Part shown: piece after piece, positions 2,068 to 61,048 of the stretch
How positions within the stretch are numbered: position 1 is the stretch's first letter
Layout: the number at the start of each line of letters is the position of its first letter
NCBI RefSeq assembly: GCF_013817205.1
Contig: NZ_JACDDD010000005.1
Coordinates: 1-64,000, forward strand
DNA from: Polaromonas sp.
GTDB lineage: Bacteria; Pseudomonadota; Gammaproteobacteria; Burkholderiales; Burkholderiaceae_C
DNA length: 64,000 bases
Direction of reading: 5' to 3'
Translations under genes and position numbers: made by a program
Notes under the pieces: model-generated
The model's input: only the letters and a program-made list of their open reading frames with translations
Told to the model about the DNA's origin: nothing
Databases searched by the model: none

Positions 2068-2825
2068 GGCTGCGCCTTCAGCGCTGCGGTGCGCTGCTCG
2101 ATCAGGGTCCAGACCTCACGCTTGCCGGCATCGCTGCACTGGGCCCAGGCAGCGATTTCTTCGCGCGTGCGAAAGCAGCCTTCACACCAGCCGGTGAGCG
2201 TGCTCATGCGGCACACCGAGTTGCAGGGAGAGGGAATGTTTTCGGTCTCAGCCCTTATCTGACAAGCGCGGATAGCTATCAAGTTGATAGCATGTTGCTG
2301 CGAAACCTGCTCCTGCACCACATCCACCGCCACATTGCTGACCGGGGCGCCGGTCAGATCCACCAGTTGCTGCGGGCTCAGTTTGAACACGCCATGCGGG
2401 TGGCCGGCCGCCGCCCAGATTTCGTCAAAGCGCAGCAGGCTCTGGTCGATCAGCGTGACAGGTGGTGTGGTGTGCGCCAGCGGCGACACCCCGCCTATCG
2501 AAAACCCGGTGCGCGCTTTGACGAATTCCGCGTCGGCCCGGCCCAGGCGCTTGCCGTCAGGGCAGACCAGCGCCTCGACCTTTCGCTCATCGACGCGCTG
2601 GTCACCGGCCGTGATGACCAGCACCGCCATATCGTCCGACTTGCGGCGGAAAATAATGCTCTTGGCAATCTGGCCGAGGGCGATACCCAGCGCATCGGCG
2701 GCCTGCTGCGCGGTTCGTGCCGCGTCGTTGAGCATCACGGGCATGTGCGGATGGCCTTTCGCCTCCAGCACAGCCGCGACACGCTGCACGCCTTCTGGCA
2801 ACACTGTCAGCTCTCCACCGCACAT
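2064..2825 (-). CDS. YbaK/EbsC-family aminoacyl-tRNA deacylase fused to DUF1289
   Basis: A 253-residue two-domain protein. Residues about 8-165 are a YbaK/ProX-type editing domain (motifs AKSIIFRRKSDDMAVLVITAG, FSIGGVSPLAH and LSPQQLVDLTGAPV), a family that hydrolyses mischarged aminoacyl-tRNA. Residues about 198-245 are a DUF1289 Cys-rich module (SPCNSVCRM...WCEGCFRTREEIAAW). The two are usually separate proteins. The linker (about 179-196) is encoded by a copy of repeat family A at 2239-2291, read in frame. Inside the linker the only plausible re-initiation codon is a TTG with no Shine-Dalgarno, so one fused chain is the likeliest product. The start overlaps the liuE stop. Confidence 0.82.
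   Translation of the reverse strand: MCGGELTVLPEGVQRVAAVLEAKGHPHMPVMLNDAARTAQQAADALGIALGQIAKSIIFRRKSDDMAVLVITAGDQRVDERKVEALVCPDGKRLGRADAEFVKARTGFSIGGVSPLAHTTPPVTLIDQSLLRFDEIWAAAGHPHGVFKLSPQQLVDLTGAPVSNVAVDVVQEQVSQQHAINLIAIRACQIRAETENIPSPCNSVCRMSTLTGWCEGCFRTREEIAAWAQCSDAGKREVWTLIEQRTAALKAQP
2239..2291 (-). repeat. Repeat family A copy 1, inside YbaK-DUF1289 gene
   Basis: About 53 bp. Read on the minus strand it begins with the palindromic head GCTATCAACTTGATAGC, then a variable middle containing CGCGCTTG, then AAGGGCTGAGACCGAA, the family tail (consensus AGGGCTGgAGGCcgATTT). It lies in frame between two protein domains. Confidence 0.8.
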
Positions 2826-9500: not shown

Positions 9501-11123
9501 TTACATCCGGAACAAACCGAACTTCGTTTCGGGAATCGGTGCGTTCAGCGAAGCCCGCAAGCCCAGCGCCAGCATGCGGCGCGTGTCGGCCGGATCAATC
9601 ACGCCGTCGTCCCAGAGCCGTGCGGTGGCGTAATAGGGATGGCCCTGGTCTTCGTACTGCCGACGTATGGGTGCCTTGAAGGCTTCTTCTTCCTCAGCGC
9701 TCCAGCTGCCGCCCTTGCCTTCAATACCGTCGCGCTTAACCGTGGCGAGCACACCGGCAGCCTGCTCGCCGCCCATGACGCTGATGCGCGCGTTCGGCCA
9801 CATCCACAAAAAGCGCGGGCTGTAGGCGCGCCCGCACATGCCGTAGTTGCCGGCACCAAAACTGCCGCCGATGATGATGGTGAACTTGGGCACCTGGGCA
9901 GTGGCCACAGCCGTCACCATCTTGGCGCCGTTGCGGGCAATGCCTTCGTTTTCGTACTTGCGGCCCACCATGAAGCCGGTGATGTTCTGCAAGAACACCA
10001 GTGGAATCTTGCGCTGGCAACACAGCTCGATGAAATGAGTGGCCTTCAGGGCCGACTCGCTGAACAGAATGCCGTTGTTGGCGATGATGCCCACCGGCAT
10101 GCCTTCAATATGCGCAAAACCACAGATCAGCGTGGTGCCATACCGCGCCTTGAACTCGTCAAACTCGCTGCCATCCACGATGCGGGCAATGATCTCGCGC
10201 ACGTCAAAGGGTTTTCGGGTGTCCACCGGAATCACGCCGTACAGCTCTTCTGCTATAAATTCAGGAGCTACTGGCGCACGTGGGATAAGGGCTGGAGCCG
10301 TATTTTTATTCAAATTCTTGACGCAGTTGCGTGCCAGCGCCAGTGCGTGCAGGTCGTCCTGCGCCAGATGATCCGCCACACCCGAAAGACGGGTATGGAC
10401 GTCGCCACCGCCCAGGTCTTCGGCCGTGACCACTTCGCCCGTGGCCGCCTTGACCAGCGGCGGCCCACCCAGAAAAATCGTGCCCTGGTTCTTGACGATG
10501 ATGCTTTCATCGCTCATGGCCGGCACGTAAGCGCCCCCCGCAGTGCAACTGCCCATGACCACAGCGATCTGCGCAATGCCCTGCGCGCTCATGTTGGCCT
10601 GGTTGTAGAAGATGCGGCCGAAATGGTCGCGGTCGGGAAAGACCTCGTCCTGGTTCGGCAAATTGGCGCCGCCCGAATCGACCAGGTAAATACAGGGCAG
10701 GCGATTCTGCTGCGCCACTTCCTGCGCACGCAAATGTTTCTTCACCGTCATCGGGTAGTAGGTGCCGCCCTTCACCGTCGCGTCGTTGCACACAATCATG
10801 CAGTCCACCCCGTTGACGCGGCCAATGCCGGTGATCACGCCGGCGCAGGGCGCGCTGTCGCTGCCGTCACGGTCCGGGTACATGGCCAGCGCGGCCAGCG
10901 GCGCCAGCTCGAGGAAGGGCGTGCCCGGGTCCAGCAGCATCTGCACCCGCTCGCGCGGTGGCAGCTTGCCGCGCGCCACGTGTTTGGCCCGGGCGGCTTC
11001 ACCGCCGCCGGCAGCGGCCTTGGCCACCTGCAGCTTCAAGTCATCAACCAGCGCGCGCATGGCGGCTGCGTTGGCCTGAAAGTCGGCCGAGCGGGCGTTG
11101 AGTTTGGTTTCCAGAACTGGCAT
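9501..11123 (-). CDS. liuB: Methylcrotonoyl-CoA carboxylase, carboxyltransferase beta subunit
   Basis: A 540-residue acyl-CoA carboxyltransferase that moves carboxyl from biotin on LiuD to 3-methylcrotonyl-CoA. N-half: [41 protein letters not shown] and [17 protein letters not shown] (oxyanion Gly-Gly). C-half: [38 protein letters not shown] and [17 protein letters not shown] chose the ATG at 11123, preceded by agaggaga, instead of a longer frame. Residues about 271-290, the linker between the halves, are encoded by a family A repeat (10254-10310) in frame. First gene of operon I, with an AraC gene divergent from it. Confidence 0.95.
10254..10310 (+). repeat. Repeat family A copy 2, inside liuB
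   Basis: About 57 bp: GCTATAAATTCAGGAGCTAC, then ATAAGGGCTGGAGCCGTATT. The head and tail match the intergenic copies closely. It lies wholly within liuB, on the opposite strand to the gene, and is translated in frame. Confidence 0.78.
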
Positions 11124-20606: not shown

Positions 20607-20662
20607 GCTATTAATTCAATAGCTGCTTGCGCCCGCCAGACGGGGGCTAGAGGCCGATTTAA
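20607..20662 (+). repeat. Repeat family A copy 3
   Basis: A near-consensus intergenic copy: GCTATTAATTCAATAGCTGC, then TTGCGCCCGCCAGACG, then GGGGCTAGAGGCCGATTTAA. It lies downstream of the SDR gene, in a 211-bp interval that holds nothing else I recognise. Confidence 0.85.
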
Positions 20663-20694
20663 TGCATGAACCGCGCGCGCAGCGTGCTCGCGGC

Positions 20695-22103: not shown

Positions 22104-22158
22104 GCTATCAATTCAATAGCTGCTTATGCATACCAGTAAAGGGCTGAAGGCCGATTTG
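22104..22158 (+). repeat. Repeat family A copy 4
   Basis: GCTATCAATTCAATAGCTGC, then TTATGCATACCAGTAA, then AGGGCTGAAGGCCGATTTGA. Intergenic between the convergent HxlR and DUF2868-type genes. Like copy 3 it is followed by atgcatgaa, so the conserved block may extend some 10 bp further. Confidence 0.85.
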
Positions 22159-22219
22159 ATGCATGAATTTCACCCCGGAACTCAAAACCCACCGAAGCGG
22201 GCTCGCGCGCACAGCCCGC

Positions 22220-24974: not shown

Positions 24975-25028
24975 GCTACATATTTAATAGCTGCCTGCGC
25001 CCGTCATTCTTGGGCTGATGGCATATTT
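24975..25028 (+). repeat. Repeat family A copy 5
   Basis: GCTACATATTTAATAGCTGC, then CTGCGCCCGTCATTCTT, then GGGCTGATGGCATATTTTG. Intergenic, between the YchJ-like gene and the HAD gene (both minus strand). Confidence 0.82.
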
Positions 25029-25038
25029 TGCTTGAGAC

Positions 25039-25470
25039 TTAAAGCTGGTCACCGTCAATATAGTACCAACGGCCTGCGCCCTCGCCTTCGCGCACAAAAC
25101 GGCTGCGCTCATGCAGGCGCAGGGCCGGACTGCCGGGGCTTTTCTGGCGTGCGACAAATTCGACCTCGGCGTGGCAGGCGTCCAGCACGCGATGCTGCCG
25201 CACCTCCAGGCCCAGCCATTTCACGCCGGCGTCGAAGCTGATGGACGGCGGGCGATGGCTGGCGTGCCAGGTGGCCAGCAGGTAGTCATCCCGCTCCAGC
25301 ACAAAGGCGCTGTAACGCGAGCGCATCAGCGACTCGGCATCGGGCGCCGGGGTGATCTCGAAATTGTTGATGAAGCGGCCGCAGCAAGCGTCTAGATTCA
25401 GGGGCTTGCCCAACGGCCCCGAACGGCCGCAGGGGCAAGCTGCCGAAACGGGTGGGGAAGAATGCGGCAT
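25039..25470 (-). CDS. YchJ-family protein (SEC-C / NTF2-like)
   Basis: A 143-residue protein. The N-terminal CPCGRSG...LDACCGRFI holds Cys residues of a degenerate SEC-C zinc site. It is followed by the UPF0225/YchJ NTF2-like domain: ESLMRSRYSAFVLERDDYLLATWHASHRP and FVARQKSPGSPALRLHERSRFVREGEGAGRWYYIDGD. I took the ATG at 25470, which overlaps the rhodanese stop as ATGA, rather than a longer frame. Function unknown; coupling to a rhodanese gene suggests, weakly, sulfur or zinc chemistry. Confidence 0.88.
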   Translation of the reverse strand: MPHSSPPVSAACPCGRSGPLGKPLNLDACCGRFINNFEITPAPDAESLMRSRYSAFVLERDDYLLATWHASHRPPSISFDAGVKWLGLEVRQHRVLDACHAEVEFVARQKSPGSPALRLHERSRFVREGEGAGRWYYIDGDQL

Positions 25471-27792: not shown

Positions 27793-28920
27793 CTAGATCT
27801 GTCTTTGAATGATGATTTTCTGCACGTCGCTCGTGCCTTCATAAATCTGGCACACCCGCACGTCGCGGTAAATCCGCTCCACTGGGAAGTCGTTGACATA
27901 ACCATAACCGCCCAGAGTCTGGATCGCGGCGCTGCAGACTTTTTCGGCCATCTCGCTGGCAAACAGCTTGGCCATGGCCGCCTCCTTCAGGCAGGGCAGG
28001 CCGGCATCGCGCAAACTGGCGGCGTGCCAGATCAGCTGCCGCGCGGCTTCGAGCTGGGTGGCACAGTCGGCCAGACGGAAGCCCACTGCCTGGTGGTTGA
28101 AGATGGCGGTGCCAAAACTTTGCCGCTCCTTGGCGTAAGCCAGCGCAAACTCGAAGGCGCTACGCGCCATGCCCACACTCTGTGCCGCAATGCCGATGCG
28201 TCCGCCTTCGAGCGCGCCCAGGGCAATGCGATAGCCTTCACCCTCCGCGCCAATCAGGTTCTCGGCAGGGATGCGGCAGTTGTCAAAGTTGATTTGTGCC
28301 GTGTCACTGCTGTGCTGACCGAGTTTTTCTTCCAGCCGCGCCACCATATAACCCGGCGCATCGGTCGGCACCAGAAACGCGCTCATGCCTTTTTTCCCAG
28401 CACCCTTGTCGGTGACCGCAATCACGATGGCGAGCTGGCCGTTTTTGCCGCTGGTGATGAACTGCTTGACGCCGTTGATGACGTAGCCGTCGCCCTCTTT
28501 CACTGCGGTGGTACGCAAGCCCGACGCGTCGCTGCCGACATGCGGCTCGGTCAGGCAGAACACGCCCAGCATCTGCCCCTGCGCCAGCGGTGTGAGCCAC
28601 TGCTTTTTCTGCTGCGCATTGCCATAACGCAGCAGGATGGCGTTGACCGGGCAATTGGTGACAGAAATCGCCGTGCTGGTGCCGCCGTCGCCGGCCGCGA
28701 TTTCTTCCAGCACCAGCGCCAGCGTCAGGTAGTCAAGGTTCGCACCGCCAAACTCTTCGGGCACGCAGATGCCGTAGGCGCCGAGCGCGGCCAGGCCCTG
28801 GTGCGCTTCTTTAGGAAAGTGGCGCTCCCGGTCCCACCTTGCGGCGTGGGGCCAGAGTTCGGCCTGCGCGAAGTCACGCACCGCATCACGGATCTGTTCT
28901 TGCTCGGAGTTAAGTATCAA
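27793..28920 (-). CDS. Acyl-CoA dehydrogenase
   Basis: A 375-residue flavoprotein that oxidises acyl-CoA thioesters and passes electrons to ETF. AFCLTEPHVGSDASGLRTTA-type FAD/substrate motif is seen as VFCLTEPHVGSDASG. VNDFPVERIYRDVRVCQIYEGTSDVQKI carries the standard catalytic Glu in YEGT, unlike the LiuA protein in this operon. It is a short-chain type by length. The start is TTG within the edge of repeat A copy 6, whose GGAGG provides the ribosome site 5 bp upstream; no ATG or GTG fits better. Last gene of operon II. Confidence 0.92.
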   Translation of the reverse strand: MILNSEQEQIRDAVRDFAQAELWPHAARWDRERHFPKEAHQGLAALGAYGICVPEEFGGANLDYLTLALVLEEIAAGDGGTSTAISVTNCPVNAILLRYGNAQQKKQWLTPLAQGQMLGVFCLTEPHVGSDASGLRTTAVKEGDGYVINGVKQFITSGKNGQLAIVIAVTDKGAGKKGMSAFLVPTDAPGYMVARLEEKLGQHSSDTAQINFDNCRIPAENLIGAEGEGYRIALGALEGGRIGIAAQSVGMARSAFEFALAYAKERQSFGTAIFNHQAVGFRLADCATQLEAARQLIWHAASLRDAGLPCLKEAAMAKLFASEMAEKVCSAAIQTLGGYGYVNDFPVERIYRDVRVCQIYEGTSDVQKIIIQRQI

Positions 28921-28972
28921 ATCGGCCTCCAGCCCTTATGAAATATGCGTCAACAGCTATTGTATTTATAGC
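28919..28972 (-). repeat. Repeat family A copy 6, supplying start/SD and a stop codon
   Basis: On the minus strand: GCTATAAATACAATAGCTG, then TTGACGCATATTTCATA, then AGGGCTGGAGGCCGATTT. The head contains the TAA stop of the thiolase gene (28966-28968). The tail contains GGAGG just before, and two bases of, the TTG start of the acyl-CoA dehydrogenase gene. Confidence 0.85.
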
Positions 28973-30153
28973 AACTCAATAGCCAGCGCCGTGCCTTCGC
29001 CGCCGCCAATGCACAAGGTGGCGACGCCTTTCTTCAGCCCGCGCGCCTGCAGCGCATGGATCAACGTGACGATGATGCGCGCGCCGCTGGCGCCAATCGG
29101 GTGGCCCAGCGCACAGGCGCCGCCGTTGACGATGTCGTGGCTGATGCCGAGCTCCTTCATCGCAGCCATGGGCACCACGGCGAAAGCCTCGTTGACTTCC
29201 CACAAGTCCACGTCTTTCACGCTCCAGCCGATTTTCTTGAGCAGCTTGCTGACGGCGCCGACTGGCGCGGTGGTAAACCATTCCGGCTCTTGCGCAAAGG
29301 TGGCGTGGCCGACGATGCGGGCGATGGGCTTGGCGCCCAGTTCTTTCGCGGTTGATGCACGTGCCAGCACCAGCGCGGCGGCGCCGTCGTTGATGGACGA
29401 GCTGGAGGCGGCGGTGATGGTGCCGTCTTTTTTGAACGCGGGTTTGAGCGTGGGAATTTTGTCGAGCTTGACTTTGCCCGGGCCCTCATCGATGGAAATC
29501 ACGGTCTCGCCGCTGCGGCCCTTGACAGTCACCGGCGTGATCTCGGCCTTGAAGGCGCCCGACTCGGTGGCGGCCTTGGCACGGTTGACGCTGGTGGTGG
29601 CAAAAGCGTCCTGCGCTTCACGCGTGAATTTGTATTTGTCAGCGCACTGCTCGCCGAAGGTGCCCATGGCACGGCCCGGCTCATAAGCGTCTTCCAGGCC
29701 GTCGAGCATCATGTGGTCGAAGATGCGGTCATGGCCGATGCGCACGCCGCTGCGGCCCTTGAGCAACAGATGCGGCGCATTGGTCATGCTTTCCATGCCC
29801 CCAGCCACCATGACGTCGCGGCTGCCGACCAGCAACTGGTCGTGCGCAAGCATCGTGGCTTCCATGCCGGAGCCACACATCTTCGACAGCGTCACCGCGC
29901 CGGTGCTGGCCGGCAGGCCGCCCTTGAAGCCGGCCTGGCGCGCAGGCGCTTGGCCCTGGCCGGCCATCAGGCAGTTGCCGAAAAGTACTTCGTCCACTTT
30001 TTCAGGCGCAATGCCGGAGCGCTCAATGGCCGCCTTGATGGCGGCGCCGCCGAGATCATGCGCAGACAAGCTGGAAAAATCGCCCTGGAAGCCACCCATG
30101 GGGGTGCGGGCCGCGCCGAGGATGACGATGGTGTCAAGAATGGATGGGGACAT
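28966..30153 (-). CDS. Acetyl-CoA C-acyltransferase (thiolase)
   Basis: A 395-residue degradative/biosynthetic type thiolase. The acyl-accepting Cys is in LSKMCGSGMEATMLA (about residue 91). The catalytic His is in GGACALGHPIGASGARI, and the second Cys is in VATLCIGGGEGTALAIE. All catalytic residues are present, and length is normal. Together with the acyl-CoA dehydrogenase 45 bp downstream it could handle acetoacetyl-CoA formed from leucine, or short-chain 3-ketoacyl-CoA. Its stop codon is contributed by repeat A copy 6. The preceding 11-bp gap contains its ribosome site (aaggagaa). Confidence 0.93.
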   Translation of the reverse strand: MSPSILDTIVILGAARTPMGGFQGDFSSLSAHDLGGAAIKAAIERSGIAPEKVDEVLFGNCLMAGQGQAPARQAGFKGGLPASTGAVTLSKMCGSGMEATMLAHDQLLVGSRDVMVAGGMESMTNAPHLLLKGRSGVRIGHDRIFDHMMLDGLEDAYEPGRAMGTFGEQCADKYKFTREAQDAFATTSVNRAKAATESGAFKAEITPVTVKGRSGETVISIDEGPGKVKLDKIPTLKPAFKKDGTITAASSSSINDGAAALVLARASTAKELGAKPIARIVGHATFAQEPEWFTTAPVGAVSKLLKKIGWSVKDVDLWEVNEAFAVVPMAAMKELGISHDIVNGGACALGHPIGASGARIIVTLIHALQARGLKKGVATLCIGGGEGTALAIELL

Positions 30154-39636: not shown

Positions 39637-39756
39637 GGGGATGATCCAAAAAGGAAATAAATTGCAATTTAATAGATTTATTGAATTTAATCAACGCAGA
39701 TGACATTCCATCAATTTGACATTTCATCCGGCTCCAGCCCGCGACTGATGATGAAA

Positions 39757-39807
39757 CAAGCCGTCAGCCCTGGTACAGCAAGCGCAAGATGCTATTAAAA
39801 TTATAGC
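39757..39807 (-). repeat. Repeat family A copy 7
   Basis: On the minus strand GCTATAATTTTAATAGCAT, then CTTGCGCTTGCTGTACC, then AGGGCTGACGGCTTG. It lies in the 206-bp interval between the 3' end of the large sensor kinase gene and the response-regulator start; the rest of that interval is AT-rich and may hold the regulator promoter. Confidence 0.78.
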
Positions 39808-44890: not shown

Positions 44891-45856
44891 TCACCATCGG
44901 GGCACCACCTCATCCTTCAACTGGCTGCGCAAATGGGCGTAGTCGGGCACCACGGTGCGCACAGTGTCCCAGAAGCGGGGGCTGTGGTCCATCACCCGCA
45001 AATGACTCAACTCGTGCACCACCACATAGTCAATCACCGACGGTTTGAAGTGGATCAACCGCCAGTTCAGCCGTATCGCACCATCGGCGCTGGCACTGCC
45101 CCAACGGGTGCCCGCGCTGCTCAGGCTGAGTTTGCGCCATTGCACACCCAAATGGGGGGCAAAGTGGTCCAGGCGTTCGGTAAAGATCTGTTTGGCCCGC
45201 CGCATCAGCCAGGCCTGCACCGAGTCGCGGATCTGTTCGGCGCTGGCGTCGTGCGCCAGTCCGATGCACAGGGTTTTCGGTGCCCCGGCCGGTCCAGGCT
45301 GGAGTTCGCCACCGACACCGCTGAACGCATGGCGCGGGTCGATCTGCACCGTCACCGTCTCGCCCAGGAAGGGAAGGGTGGTTCCGTCGCGCCACTCGAT
45401 ACGCGCCGCTTCGAGCCGGTCGTGGCGCGCCCGGGTTTCCCGCAGCTTGGCGACAATCCAGCTGGTTTTTTCCTGAACCGCCTTGTCGATCTCATACAGG
45501 GGCACCCACTTGGGCGCGCTGACCACCAGGCCCTCGGCGCCTACCGAAAAGCCGATGGTGCGGCGTTTGCCGCGCCGGAACTGGTACGCCACCACCGTGT
45601 CGCCCAGCAGCGCCTCGCGCGTAGCGGCCGGATGGCGGTAGGTGGCGGGCGCCAGCACCTGCTGCAGGGTCTGCGCCGGGCGACCATCGACCGGGCCGAG
45701 ATCAGCTACTGTTTCAATAGCAGAATTCGCAGGAAGGACGGGGGCTGGCGGGCGATTTGGCTTGATTTTTCCGGCCTTGCGCCGCTTGTCAGGTCCCGGC
45801 GCCGGTATCTCCGTGCCAAACAGGTCAAGCGTGAACTGGAGAAGCCTTTGCATCAT
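44891..45856 (-). CDS. YgjP/SprT-like zinc metallopeptidase (DUF45, M48-like)
   Basis: A 321-residue COG1451-type protein. The zinc motif is in VIDYVVVHELSHLRVMDHSPRFWDTV, an HExxH followed by a His ligand. VSAPKWVPLYEIDKAVQEKTSWIVAKL and WRKLSLSSAGTRWGSASADGAIRLNWRL are family hallmarks. The N-terminal region (about 20-75) is a low-complexity extension; residues about 33-51 are encoded by a family A repeat (45704-45759) in frame. The end of the gene is followed by an AT-rich 143-bp interval. Cellular role unknown. Confidence 0.9.
   Translation of the reverse strand: MMQRLLQFTLDLFGTEIPAPGPDKRRKAGKIKPNRPPAPVLPANSAIETVADLGPVDGRPAQTLQQVLAPATYRHPAATREALLGDTVVAYQFRRGKRRTIGFSVGAEGLVVSAPKWVPLYEIDKAVQEKTSWIVAKLRETRARHDRLEAARIEWRDGTTLPFLGETVTVQIDPRHAFSGVGGELQPGPAGAPKTLCIGLAHDASAEQIRDSVQAWLMRRAKQIFTERLDHFAPHLGVQWRKLSLSSAGTRWGSASADGAIRLNWRLIHFKPSVIDYVVVHELSHLRVMDHSPRFWDTVRTVVPDYAHLRSQLKDEVVPRW
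45704..45759 (+). repeat. Repeat family A copy 8, inside the YgjP-like gene
   Basis: GCTACTGTTTCAATAGCAG, then AATTCGCAGGAAGGACG, then GGGGCTGGCGGGCGATTTGG. It is on the strand opposite to the gene and is translated as part of a Pro/Ala-rich N-terminal segment. Confidence 0.75.
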
Positions 45857-46778: not shown

Positions 46779-46815
46779 GTGAAGTCTCTTGTCTCGTTTT
46801 CTATTAACGTTTTGT

Positions 46816-46863
46816 GCCTCCAGCCCTTTAAATACAAGGGCTGATAGCTACTATTTTCATAGC
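46816..46863 (-). repeat. Repeat family A copy 9
   Basis: On the minus strand GCTATGAAAATAGTAGCTATC, then AGCCCTTGTATTTAAAGGGCT, then GGAGGC. The middle of this copy forms an additional AGCCCTT/AAGGGCT hairpin. It lies between gmhB and plsC, and the end of gmhB is 2 bp away. Confidence 0.8.
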
Positions 46864-52508: not shown

Positions 52509-54321
52509 GGGTGCCACCGTGGTGGATGGACGCGGAGGCGAGCCTTTTGTCGCCGACGTCGGCGTGCGGGACGGCCGCATCGTGGAAGTCGGTACCCTCA
52601 GCGAAGCCGCGCACGAAACGGTGGACGCCAGCGGCCTGTGGCTGACCCCCGGTTTTGTCGACATCCACACCCACTACGACGGCCAGGTGACCTGGGACGA
52701 AAACTTCGCACCTAGCATTTACCACGGCGTGACCACGCTGGTGATGGGCAACTGCGGCGTTGGTTTTGCGCCTGTTCGTCCCGGCCATCAGGACGACCTG
52801 ATCAAGCTCATGGAGGGGGTGGAAGACATTCCCGGTGCGGCGCTGCACGAGGGCATACGCTGGGACTGGGAGAGTTTCCCGCAGTACATGGACGCGCTGG
52901 AGAAGACGCCGCGCAGCCTGGACTACCTGGTGCAGGTGCCACACGACCCGCTGCGCATGTATGTGATGGGTGAGCGCGCGGTGGCCAAACAAACCGCCGC
53001 GCCGCATGAGATCGCCGCCATGCGTGCGCTGCTGCACGAGGCACTGCTGGCCGGCGCCGCCGGTTTCAGCACTGGCCGCAGCGACAACCACCGCACCTCC
53101 GAAGGCAAGGACACGCCGGCCGCCGAGGCCACGGCGGCAGAACTGGTGGGACTGGCCGGCGCGTTTAAAGGCATCGCGCACGGCGTGTTGCAGGTGGTCA
53201 GCGACTTCGACCTGTTGCAAGATCTTGCTGCCCCCCGGCCCTTGCAGGACCGGCCCCCCGAGGGGGCGCTCCCCGCTAGGGGCGGCCCGTCGCCGGGGCC
53301 GCGCTTCGACGCCGAATTCGACCTGGTCGAACAGATGGCGCAAGCCAGCGGCAAGCCGCTGTCCATGACCTGGTTGCAGCGCGACCCGGGCGGCGAGCAG
53401 TATGAAGCGATACGCAGTCGCGTCGACAGCGCGGTGGCCTCTGGCCTGCCATTGTTTCTGCAGGCTGCCGTGCGCGGCATCGGCGTGATCAACGGGCTGG
53501 ACGCGAGTTTTCATCCCTTCATGGGCTTCCCCGGTTACAAGGAAGTCGCGCACCTGCCGCTGGCCGAACGCGCCGCCGCACTGCGCGAGCCGGCCCGCAA
53601 GGCACGCATCCTGGGCGAGAAGTCGGAACGCCTGGCGGGCGACGGCACGGCCATCCCGCCACTGGTGGATATTTTGCTGGCGCGTATCGACATGATCAGC
53701 GGGCGCATGTTCCCGCTCGACGACCAGCTCAACTACGAGCCATCGGTCATGCAGAGTTTTCTGGTGCAGGCCAGGCAGCGCGGCGCCACACCGCTGGAAG
53801 CGCTGTACGACCACCTGGCCGGGGGCGACGGCAGCCACCTCATCTACTTCCCGATCTTCAACTACAACAGCGGCTCGCTGGACGCGGTGCGGCAGATGCT
53901 GGACCATCCGCGTGTGCTCTCCAGCCTCAGCGATGCCGGCGCCCACGTCGGCACGGTTTGCGACGCAAGTTTCACCACCTTCATGCTGACGCACTGGGTG
54001 TTGGGCCGCGAGCAGGGCAAGCTGCCGCTGGGGCGCGCGGTGGAGATGCTGACGCGGCGCAACGCGCGTTACCTGGGCCTGACAGACCGCGGCGAGATCG
54101 CACCCGGTCAACGCGCCGACCTGAACCTCATCGACCCGCAACGCCTGAGCGTGGGCACACCGGCGCTGGTGCGCGACCTGCCGGCCGGGGGCAAACGTTT
54201 TCTGCAGAAGGCCGAGGGTTATGTGGCGACCTGGGTCGCCGGCGTGGCCGTACAGCGCGAAGGCGAGATCACCGCAGGGCGTCCCGGGCGGCTGGTTCGG
54301 ATGGGAAGAGTCGCGTCCTGA
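52489..54321 (+). CDS. N-acyl-D-amino-acid deacylase family amidohydrolase, with in-frame repeat insertion
   Basis: A 610-residue metal-dependent amidohydrolase (D-aminoacylase family, amidohydro_3). GFVDIHTHYDGQVTWD has the HxH metal pair, VMGNCGVGFAP the conserved Cys-containing loop, SLSDAGAHVG the Asp-Ala-Gly-His, and APGQRADLNLIDP the C-terminal strand. Residues about 247-272 (APRPLQDRPPEGALPARGG...) are Pro/Gly-rich, encoded by a family B-like repeat, and interrupt DFDLLQ...AEFDLVEQM. Without them the flanks join naturally. Start overlaps the transporter gene. Substrate unknown. Confidence 0.9.
   Translation: MLDLLVKGATVVDGRGGEPFVADVGVRDGRIVEVGTLSEAAHETVDASGLWLTPGFVDIHTHYDGQVTWDENFAPSIYHGVTTLVMGNCGVGFAPVRPGHQDDLIKLMEGVEDIPGAALHEGIRWDWESFPQYMDALEKTPRSLDYLVQVPHDPLRMYVMGERAVAKQTAAPHEIAAMRALLHEALLAGAAGFSTGRSDNHRTSEGKDTPAAEATAAELVGLAGAFKGIAHGVLQVVSDFDLLQDLAAPRPLQDRPPEGALPARGGPSPGPRFDAEFDLVEQMAQASGKPLSMTWLQRDPGGEQYEAIRSRVDSAVASGLPLFLQAAVRGIGVINGLDASFHPFMGFPGYKEVAHLPLAERAAALREPARKARILGEKSERLAGDGTAIPPLVDILLARIDMISGRMFPLDDQLNYEPSVMQSFLVQARQRGATPLEALYDHLAGGDGSHLIYFPIFNYNSGSLDAVRQMLDHPRVLSSLSDAGAHVGTVCDASFTTFMLTHWVLGREQGKLPLGRAVEMLTRRNARYLGLTDRGEIAPGQRADLNLIDPQRLSVGTPALVRDLPAGGKRFLQKAEGYVATWVAGVAVQREGEITAGRPGRLVRMGRVAS
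53229..53310 (-). repeat. Repeat family B-like copy 4, inside the D-aminoacylase gene
   Basis: GC-rich palindromic stretch gccccccggcccttgcaggaccgg, ccccccgagggggcg, ctccccgctaggggcggcccg. It keeps the CCCCCGAGGGGG hairpin of family B but not the cacgcagtgagcgaccg tail. It has no stop in the frame used and adds about 26 residues. Confidence 0.7.
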
Positions 54322-54330
54322 TTTTTAGAC

Positions 54331-54384
54331 AAATCGGCCTTCAGCCCTTATCCAACGGGCGTGAGAAGCTACTATTTTGATAGC
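54331..54384 (-). repeat. Repeat family A copy 10
   Basis: On the minus strand GCTATCAAAATAGTAGC, then TTCTCACGCCCGTTGGATA, then AGGGCTGAAGGCCGATTT. It lies between the convergent D-aminoacylase and lnt genes, 9 bp from the former stop. Confidence 0.85.
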
Positions 54385-60906: not shown

Positions 60907-60994
60907 GTACCCAATATAAGGGTATTCCCGCAGAAATCCAGCCTGCAGGGGCTTTTTCCGTACTGACCGGGGTCAGACACCTCAATTACAAGCC

Positions 60995-61048
60995 AAATTG
61001 GCCTCCAGCCCTCGTCCAGAAAGCGCAAGTAGCTATCAAAACAGGAGC
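60995..61048 (-). repeat. Repeat family A copy 11
   Basis: On the minus strand GCTCCTGTTTTGATAGC, then TACTTGCGCTTTCTGGACG, then AGGGCTGGAGGCCAATTT. It lies within the 272-bp interval between the GNAT and asnC-type genes; I see no gene or RNA in the rest of that interval. Confidence 0.82.

Follow-up and report, generated by a model that had tools for sequence, protein, structure and literature searches.

In a 64,000-nucleotide stretch of a Polaromonas genome (hereafter the window), a dispersed repeat lies across the boundary between a thiolase gene and an acyl-CoA dehydrogenase (ACAD) gene, where it gives the thiolase its stop codon and, judged by its sequence, the ACAD its likely ribosome site and TTG start codon. 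We consider it probable (at roughly three in four) that the repeat was present first, that loss of a short-chain dehydrogenase (SDR) gene lying between the two genes then fused the repeat tail to the ACAD gene, and that the tail now serves as its putative initiation site. Three direct observations underlie this reading: the sequence of the junction with the register of the repeat in it, the association between TTG starts and repeat tails that abut the gene, and the failure to find the SDR gene in any of the TTG-type genomes searched.

Structure of the junction

Both genes are on the minus strand, the thiolase at 30153-28966, followed by 45 bp and then by the ACAD at 28920-27793, and the minus-strand junction, read directly as GCTATAAATACAATAGC...AGGGCTGGAGGCCGATTTG, spans 28972 to 28918. 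The repeat opens at 28972 with GCTATAA, and the TAA within it is the thiolase stop; its tail AGGGCTGGAGGCCGATTTG ends at 28918 and holds GGAGG, the 5-nt spacer CCGAT and TTG. The first-pass annotation, made from the sequence alone, had placed GGAGG 5 nt before the TTG of the ACAD and had derived the TAA of the thiolase from TATAA in the repeat head, and both statements were borne out (GGAGG at 28930-28926 and TTG at 28920-28918; TAA at 28968-28966, ending ORF 28966-30153). Its coordinates, 28919-28972, were right to within one base, the low end being one short (the G of TTG is 28918). Within the 375-aa ACAD ORF this TTG comes first among the start codons; it is also the first start after the in-frame stop (open frame of 380 residues, protein of 375), with no ATG, GTG or TTG earlier in frame. 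It aligns with the ATG of relatives, and the residues after it are conserved. The features of the junction are as follows.

28966..30153, minus strand: thiolase (acetyl-CoA C-acyltransferase) gene, 395 aa (Pfam PF00108, PF02803; TIGR01930 above cut-off)
28908..28972, minus strand: repeat copy forming the junction, ~65 bp (core 28918-28972, weaker A-rich end to ~28908; profile match E 9e-17, column profile)
28966..28968, minus strand: thiolase TAA stop, repeat columns 4-6 (sequence and ORF)
28926..28930, minus strand: GGAGG, putative Shine-Dalgarno, repeat columns 42-46 (sequence; GGAGG in 18/24 and GGAG in 23/24 window-type junctions)
28918..28920, minus strand: putative TTG start codon of the ACAD, repeat columns 52-54 (sequence, ORF; TTG in 25/27 tail-abutting junctions)
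27793..28920, minus strand: ACAD gene, 375 aa (Pfam PF02771, PF02770, PF00441)

The repeat family

The tail recurs far beyond this junction, with 6 matches to a 19-mer of it in the window against 0.04 expected (up to 3 mismatches) and 116 matches to a 17-mer in the 3.77-Mb genome against none for the reversed pattern (up to 2 mismatches). A profile of the whole element, built from 38 seeds, retrieved 144 copies at E<1e-3 in 862,743 bp of the window's genome, window included (0.167 per kb), and the same search of reversed sequence returned no copy at that threshold (best E 0.37). Besides the junction copy, the window holds the following members of the family.

2227..2291, minus strand: copy inside a predicted gene (E 2e-09)
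10252..10316, plus strand: copy inside a predicted gene on the opposite strand (E 1e-15)
20607..20671, plus strand: copy (E 9e-19)
22104..22168, plus strand: copy (E 4e-17)
24975..25039, plus strand: copy (E 3e-09)
39743..39807, minus strand: copy (E 1e-07)
45705..45769, plus strand: copy (E 1e-08)
46799..46863, minus strand: copy (E 7e-10)
54320..54384, minus strand: copy (E 1e-16)
60984..61048, minus strand: copy (E 1e-15)

The column profile of 129 copies describes an element of ~65 bp that opens with a near-invariant palindrome (GCTAT...ATAGC) as its head; a variable stretch leads on to GGGCTGGAGGCC and ATTTG, and the end is A-rich. The consensus extends about 10 columns beyond TTTG, so that the element may, by its sequence, cover codons 2-4 of the ACAD as well. 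Many copies lie just downstream of stop codons, and in 7 of the 144 the stop of a same-strand upstream gene falls within the repeat head.

Only the head palindrome is evident as an inverted repeat in the column profile. Over the 129 copies the head stem showed no compensatory changes and a paired fraction not above that of shuffles, no second stem was supported, and the window gave no Rfam 15 match at gathering scores; a hairpin role of the repeat was rejected on the lack of covariation and of an Rfam match. When six junctions were folded, GGAGG was 0.44-0.86 unpaired, values that point clearly neither way.

Of 61 genus genomes, 59 contained the tail 17-mer; the number of matches per genome ranged from 0 to 116 and was often low. 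A core motif of the repeat was present in 102 of the 250 genomes examined from the same family of bacteria, with a maximum of 392 in one and with single matches near control level. No description of the repeat family was found in the open-licence literature searched.

Start codons and repeat tails in relatives

The comparison with relatives lacking the repeat, which the first-pass annotation had proposed as a way of seeing which start they use, was run on 139 loci. These comprised 80 named loci and 59 from the genus, where 87 genomes were searched, 62 gave an ACAD match, and G053, G012 and G069 were left out. L148 was dropped (N-terminus unmatched), and the remaining 138 were reduced to 126 distinct junctions; the junction of L009 (P. 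eurypsychrophila) is identical to that of L093 and that of L022 (P. glacialis) to that of L113, which suggests that the genus compared is Polaromonas. A tail was scored as abutting when repeat columns 51-53 fell at the ACAD start, with profile E up to 0.12.

The tail abuts the ACAD in 27 of the 126 junctions, with TTG in 25, TTT in one (L123) and ATG in one (L056), whereas the other 99 comprise 98 with ATG and a single TTG (L129, no repeat detected). The association between TTG and an abutting tail is strong (Fisher p 5.5e-23), the rows being phylogenetically non-independent. Six junctions (L013, L017, L025, L064, L065, L075) combine ATG with a repeat farther upstream. A further locus with ATG, L082, lies outside the set of 27. 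TTG is retained in L058 and L129 despite erosion of the tail.

Conservation was calculated on 24 window-type junctions, a set that omits three of the 27 (L012, L056 and L058). Of the 24, 18 retain GGAGG and 23 retain GGAG. The mean majority share is 0.99 for TTG, 0.95 for GGAGG and 0.57 for columns 17-36; head columns 12-16, at 0.92, come close to GGAGG. Of 11 SDR-type junctions, in which the tail mostly lies at a greater distance from a start, 7 retain GGAGG, and because this compares with 18 of 24, the contrast between the two types is weak. The second codon of the ACAD is ATA in 22 of the 24 window-type junctions, as against 2 of the 787 predicted genes of the window's genome.

The SDR gene between thiolase and ACAD

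Among 38 loci with a gap of 420-1200 bp between thiolase and ACAD, a repeat was detected in the gap in 17 (E<=0.05). In 12 of these 17 it has the register seen in the window, with the thiolase stop at repeat columns 4-6, and is followed by another gene and then by an ATG-started ACAD. The intervening gene is mostly an SDR (the L103 protein scores above the NCBIfam PRK06953 cut-off); in L019 and L037 of the 38 gap loci it is not an SDR by the listed sequence. One genome with the SDR order and the repeat in the same register, G056, is the sister of the window in the ACAD tree.

The SDR gene was then sought in 30 hand-chosen genomes, some of them incomplete, namely 17 of the 23 window-type genus genomes, G003 (which holds L129, the eroded junction) and 12 with the SDR order. 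It was found at E<=1e-40 in 12, adjoining the ACAD in all 12, and was not found in the other 18, which are the 17 window-type genomes and G003. Loci with an ATG start and neither SDR nor repeat also exist (e.g., L038, L050, L055), so the SDR can be absent without the repeat.

To the eye, the SDR gene of L029, L087 and G056 itself seems to start downstream of GGAGG, at an ATG that lies within or next to the tail. Inspection by eye of the thiolase-SDR junction of L099, L103, L105, L106 and L011 showed the tail followed by a short frame, ATG CAT GAA ... TGA; its stop codon and the start of the SDR gene overlap in the four bases ATGA, an arrangement in which translational coupling is possible.

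Origin of the junction

In the origin that we favour, a repeat copy would have come to lie across the 3' end of the thiolase gene, the TATAA of its head providing the stop codon, in a gene order like that of genus relatives (thiolase, SDR, ACAD with its own ATG). A deletion of the SDR gene would then have ended in the repeat tail and removed the native ribosome site and ATG of the ACAD, whereupon the tail's GGAGG would become the partner of the 16S rRNA anti-Shine-Dalgarno, with TTG as the start codon 5 nt downstream. The simplest and most likely order would place the repeat before the SDR loss. We infer that TTG is the codon actually used, that the repeat is older than the deletion and that selection keeps the tail; the exact break points of the deletion are likewise deduced, and a shared TGAT is a guess. 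Several observations count against this account: the weak GGAGG contrast between junction types and the similar conservation of the head, the exceptions L123, L056, L058 and L129, the SDR-free loci with ATG and no repeat, the 121 of 122 tail-covered copies of the window's genome with no clear use as a start, and the rejection of a single window-type clade described below.

One alternative is that the repeat was inserted between thiolase and ACAD genes that were already adjacent and overwrote the ATG, with no later gene deletion. Loci outside the genus in which both genes are adjacent, with ATG and without the repeat (L038, L050, L055 and others), speak for it, as do L013, L017 and L075, in which a repeat in the same register precedes an ATG 82-93 bp downstream with no gene intervening. 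Within the genus, however, the same-register repeat coexists with the SDR, also in the sister of the window (G056), and the SDR is absent from 18 of 18 TTG-type genomes searched, and we regard direct insertion as improbable. The first-pass annotation had one mobile-looking element become the whole junction between the two genes; this stands insofar as the repeat fills the junction and TTG tracks the abutting tail, but the repeat was probably not inserted between existing neighbours.

Two further alternatives concern what the tail does now. The repeat might be kept mainly for another role (as a terminator, in RNA processing or in protein binding by the head), with its position at the start incidental; the near-invariant inverted repeat of the head, conserved in both junction types, and the many copies directly after stop codons fit such a role, yet the compensatory changes and second stem sought over 129 copies and the Rfam match sought in the window were all lacking, and we think this explanation unlikely. 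That the ACAD starts at a downstream codon or an uncommon start, the conserved tail being merely inherited, appears highly improbable: although L123 has TTT at the TTG position and TTG is uncommon (22 of 787 predicted starts, from a gene finder that disfavours it), the TTG stands where relatives have ATG with the next residues conserved, lacks an earlier in-frame alternative and is preceded by GGAG in 23 of 24 window-type junctions.

Within the favoured order of events, repeat first and SDR loss second, the number of fusions was considered on gene trees. The ACAD tree used for this was based on 39 hand-chosen rows, 24 of them window-type (including L058 and L129); in the remaining 15, some of which lack the repeat, a further gene separates thiolase and ACAD. 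A single clade for the window-type rows was rejected on it (lnL difference 191, AU p 8.5e-60). The junction type required 10 changes on the tree of the thiolase 3' end, 7 on that of the ACAD 5' part and 8 on that of the ACAD 3' part, and hence gave no local sign of exchange. Either the fusion happened once, spread and was subsequently displaced through exchange, or it happened repeatedly; the rare ATA second codon held in common suggests the former, a single origin followed by exchange between lineages, while several changes are required by the gene tree.

Possible other recruitments of the tail

In L012 the repeat lies downstream of a different gene, the end of which resembles that of a metallopeptidase, and the ACAD again has TTG at the tail; L063, L072, L081 and L128 have similar upstream gene ends, no repeat and ATG. 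The first-pass annotation had called the tail of other copies a ready-made Shine-Dalgarno. As far as the motif goes this holds in part, GGAGG being present in 25 of the 122 tail-covered copies of the window's genome and a 4-base piece of it in 60; TTG occurs in columns 51-55 of 64 copies, and 16 have both GGAGG and TTG. A clear gene start at the tail was found in only one of the 122, that of the ACAD, and besides it a single doubtful one (C23:39789) lies within 10 nt; a general Shine-Dalgarno role of the tail was rejected for this genome.

A broader proposal is that the family doubles as a coding insert and a portable initiation module. The tail would have been recruited more than once, as ribosome site and start region, by whatever gene is downstream, giving the ACAD its TTG in Polaromonas-type loci and, separately, in L012, and the SDR its ATG in G056, L029 and L087, and gene loss beside a copy would be buffered because the repeat brings a new start. 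We put this forward tentatively, as somewhat doubtful. In another gene of the window's genome (G000:C142, 2849-4162, minus strand) a copy occupies residues 2-23 of a predicted protein of 437 residues and may form its N-terminus.

Copies inside genes

Against the 787 genes predicted by a purpose-made gene finder, 56 of the 144 copies lie inside genes, as in-frame inserts of about 22 residues; since 87% of the sample is coding, copies still avoid genes. One frame is preferred, by 21 of the 27 copies on the strand of the gene and by 23 of the 29 on the other strand, a bias that probably stems from the stop codons of the element in the other frames.

In PurL (PRK05297; L169:8718-12767) residues 1067-1088 are a clear, polymorphic insert common to 4 of 23 aligned relatives, and for residues 282-303 a shorter version is found in 5 of 23. 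For PutA (PRK11904; L163:9404-12484) corresponding stretches occur in 8 of 8 aligned relatives with no empty site seen, so these copies are old or doubtful. The PurL of L223, L226 and L227 carries in the same loop a different insert ending in GRGEG; it looks like the translation of another repeat family, and the loop seems to accept several kinds of repeat.

Comparison with known repeat systems

If the favoured origin is right, a dispersed repeat seems to have replaced the native initiation site of a gene, by a testable route for rejoining operons after gene loss. Two natural comparisons are at hand, relatives with the same repeat and the extra gene and relatives without the repeat. There is also a warning in it, that annotated start codons beside this repeat family may be wrong.

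REP elements with RAYT transposases are short, high-copy and partly palindromic and often follow stop codons. The present repeat is likewise high-copy, short, part-palindromic and often just after stops, but unlike them it is without a covariation-supported hairpin and has no copy beside a Y1_Tnp gene. No significant copy lies in the 3.3 kb around the sole Y1_Tnp match of the window's genome (G000:C109:20255-20575, open frame of ~240 aa), and a Y1_Tnp gene occurs in 84 of 87 genus genomes whatever their repeat count, including G057 without a tail 17-mer match. With no copy nearby and the gene near-universal regardless of repeat count, mobilisation by a Y1_Tnp/RAYT gene found no support.

The Beta-proteobacterial repeat element (BRE) is described, in the available part of its source, from Bordetella, Polaromonas, Rhodoferax and other Betaproteobacteria as usually intergenic with some copies in genes, 75-91 bp at full length in Bordetella, 63.7-78.9% GC, often tandem and with up to 29 copies per genome, and partial BREs of 40-60 bp are reported (PMC3110155). 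By description the repeat studied here differs in its ~65 bp, its AT-rich head and its 144 copies in 863 kb, and it may nevertheless belong with BRE.

Stop codons and in-frame peptides supplied by dispersed bacterial repeats are already known from the available texts on Coxiella and Rickettsia (PMC5896051, PMC10969869). For Coxiella burnetii the accessible text lists QMITE1 as the source of the ubiB stop codon and describes enhC as lengthened in frame by a copy of QMITE2; the words 'start codon' are absent from it (PMC5896051). Like these MITEs, the repeat described here is short and overlaps gene ends (7 of 144 copies hold the upstream stop); it differs in that terminal inverted repeats and target duplications are not established and only the head palindrome is evident. 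Rickettsia palindromic elements (RPEs) are dispersed elements of ~150 bp, from Rickettsia, that form in-frame peptide inserts, nearly half of them in genes, and the words 'start codon' and 'ribosome' are absent from the available portion of the review (PMC10969869). By description, our repeat resembles RPEs in having copies in genes (here 56 of 144) and preferring one frame, and differs in its length (~65 bp) and its betaproteobacterial host. A repeat acting as ribosome site and start was not found in the available texts on RPEs and QMITEs (PMC10969869, PMC5896051). By analogy, the repeat at the thiolase-ACAD junction would work like a MITE or a Rickettsia palindromic element put to use.
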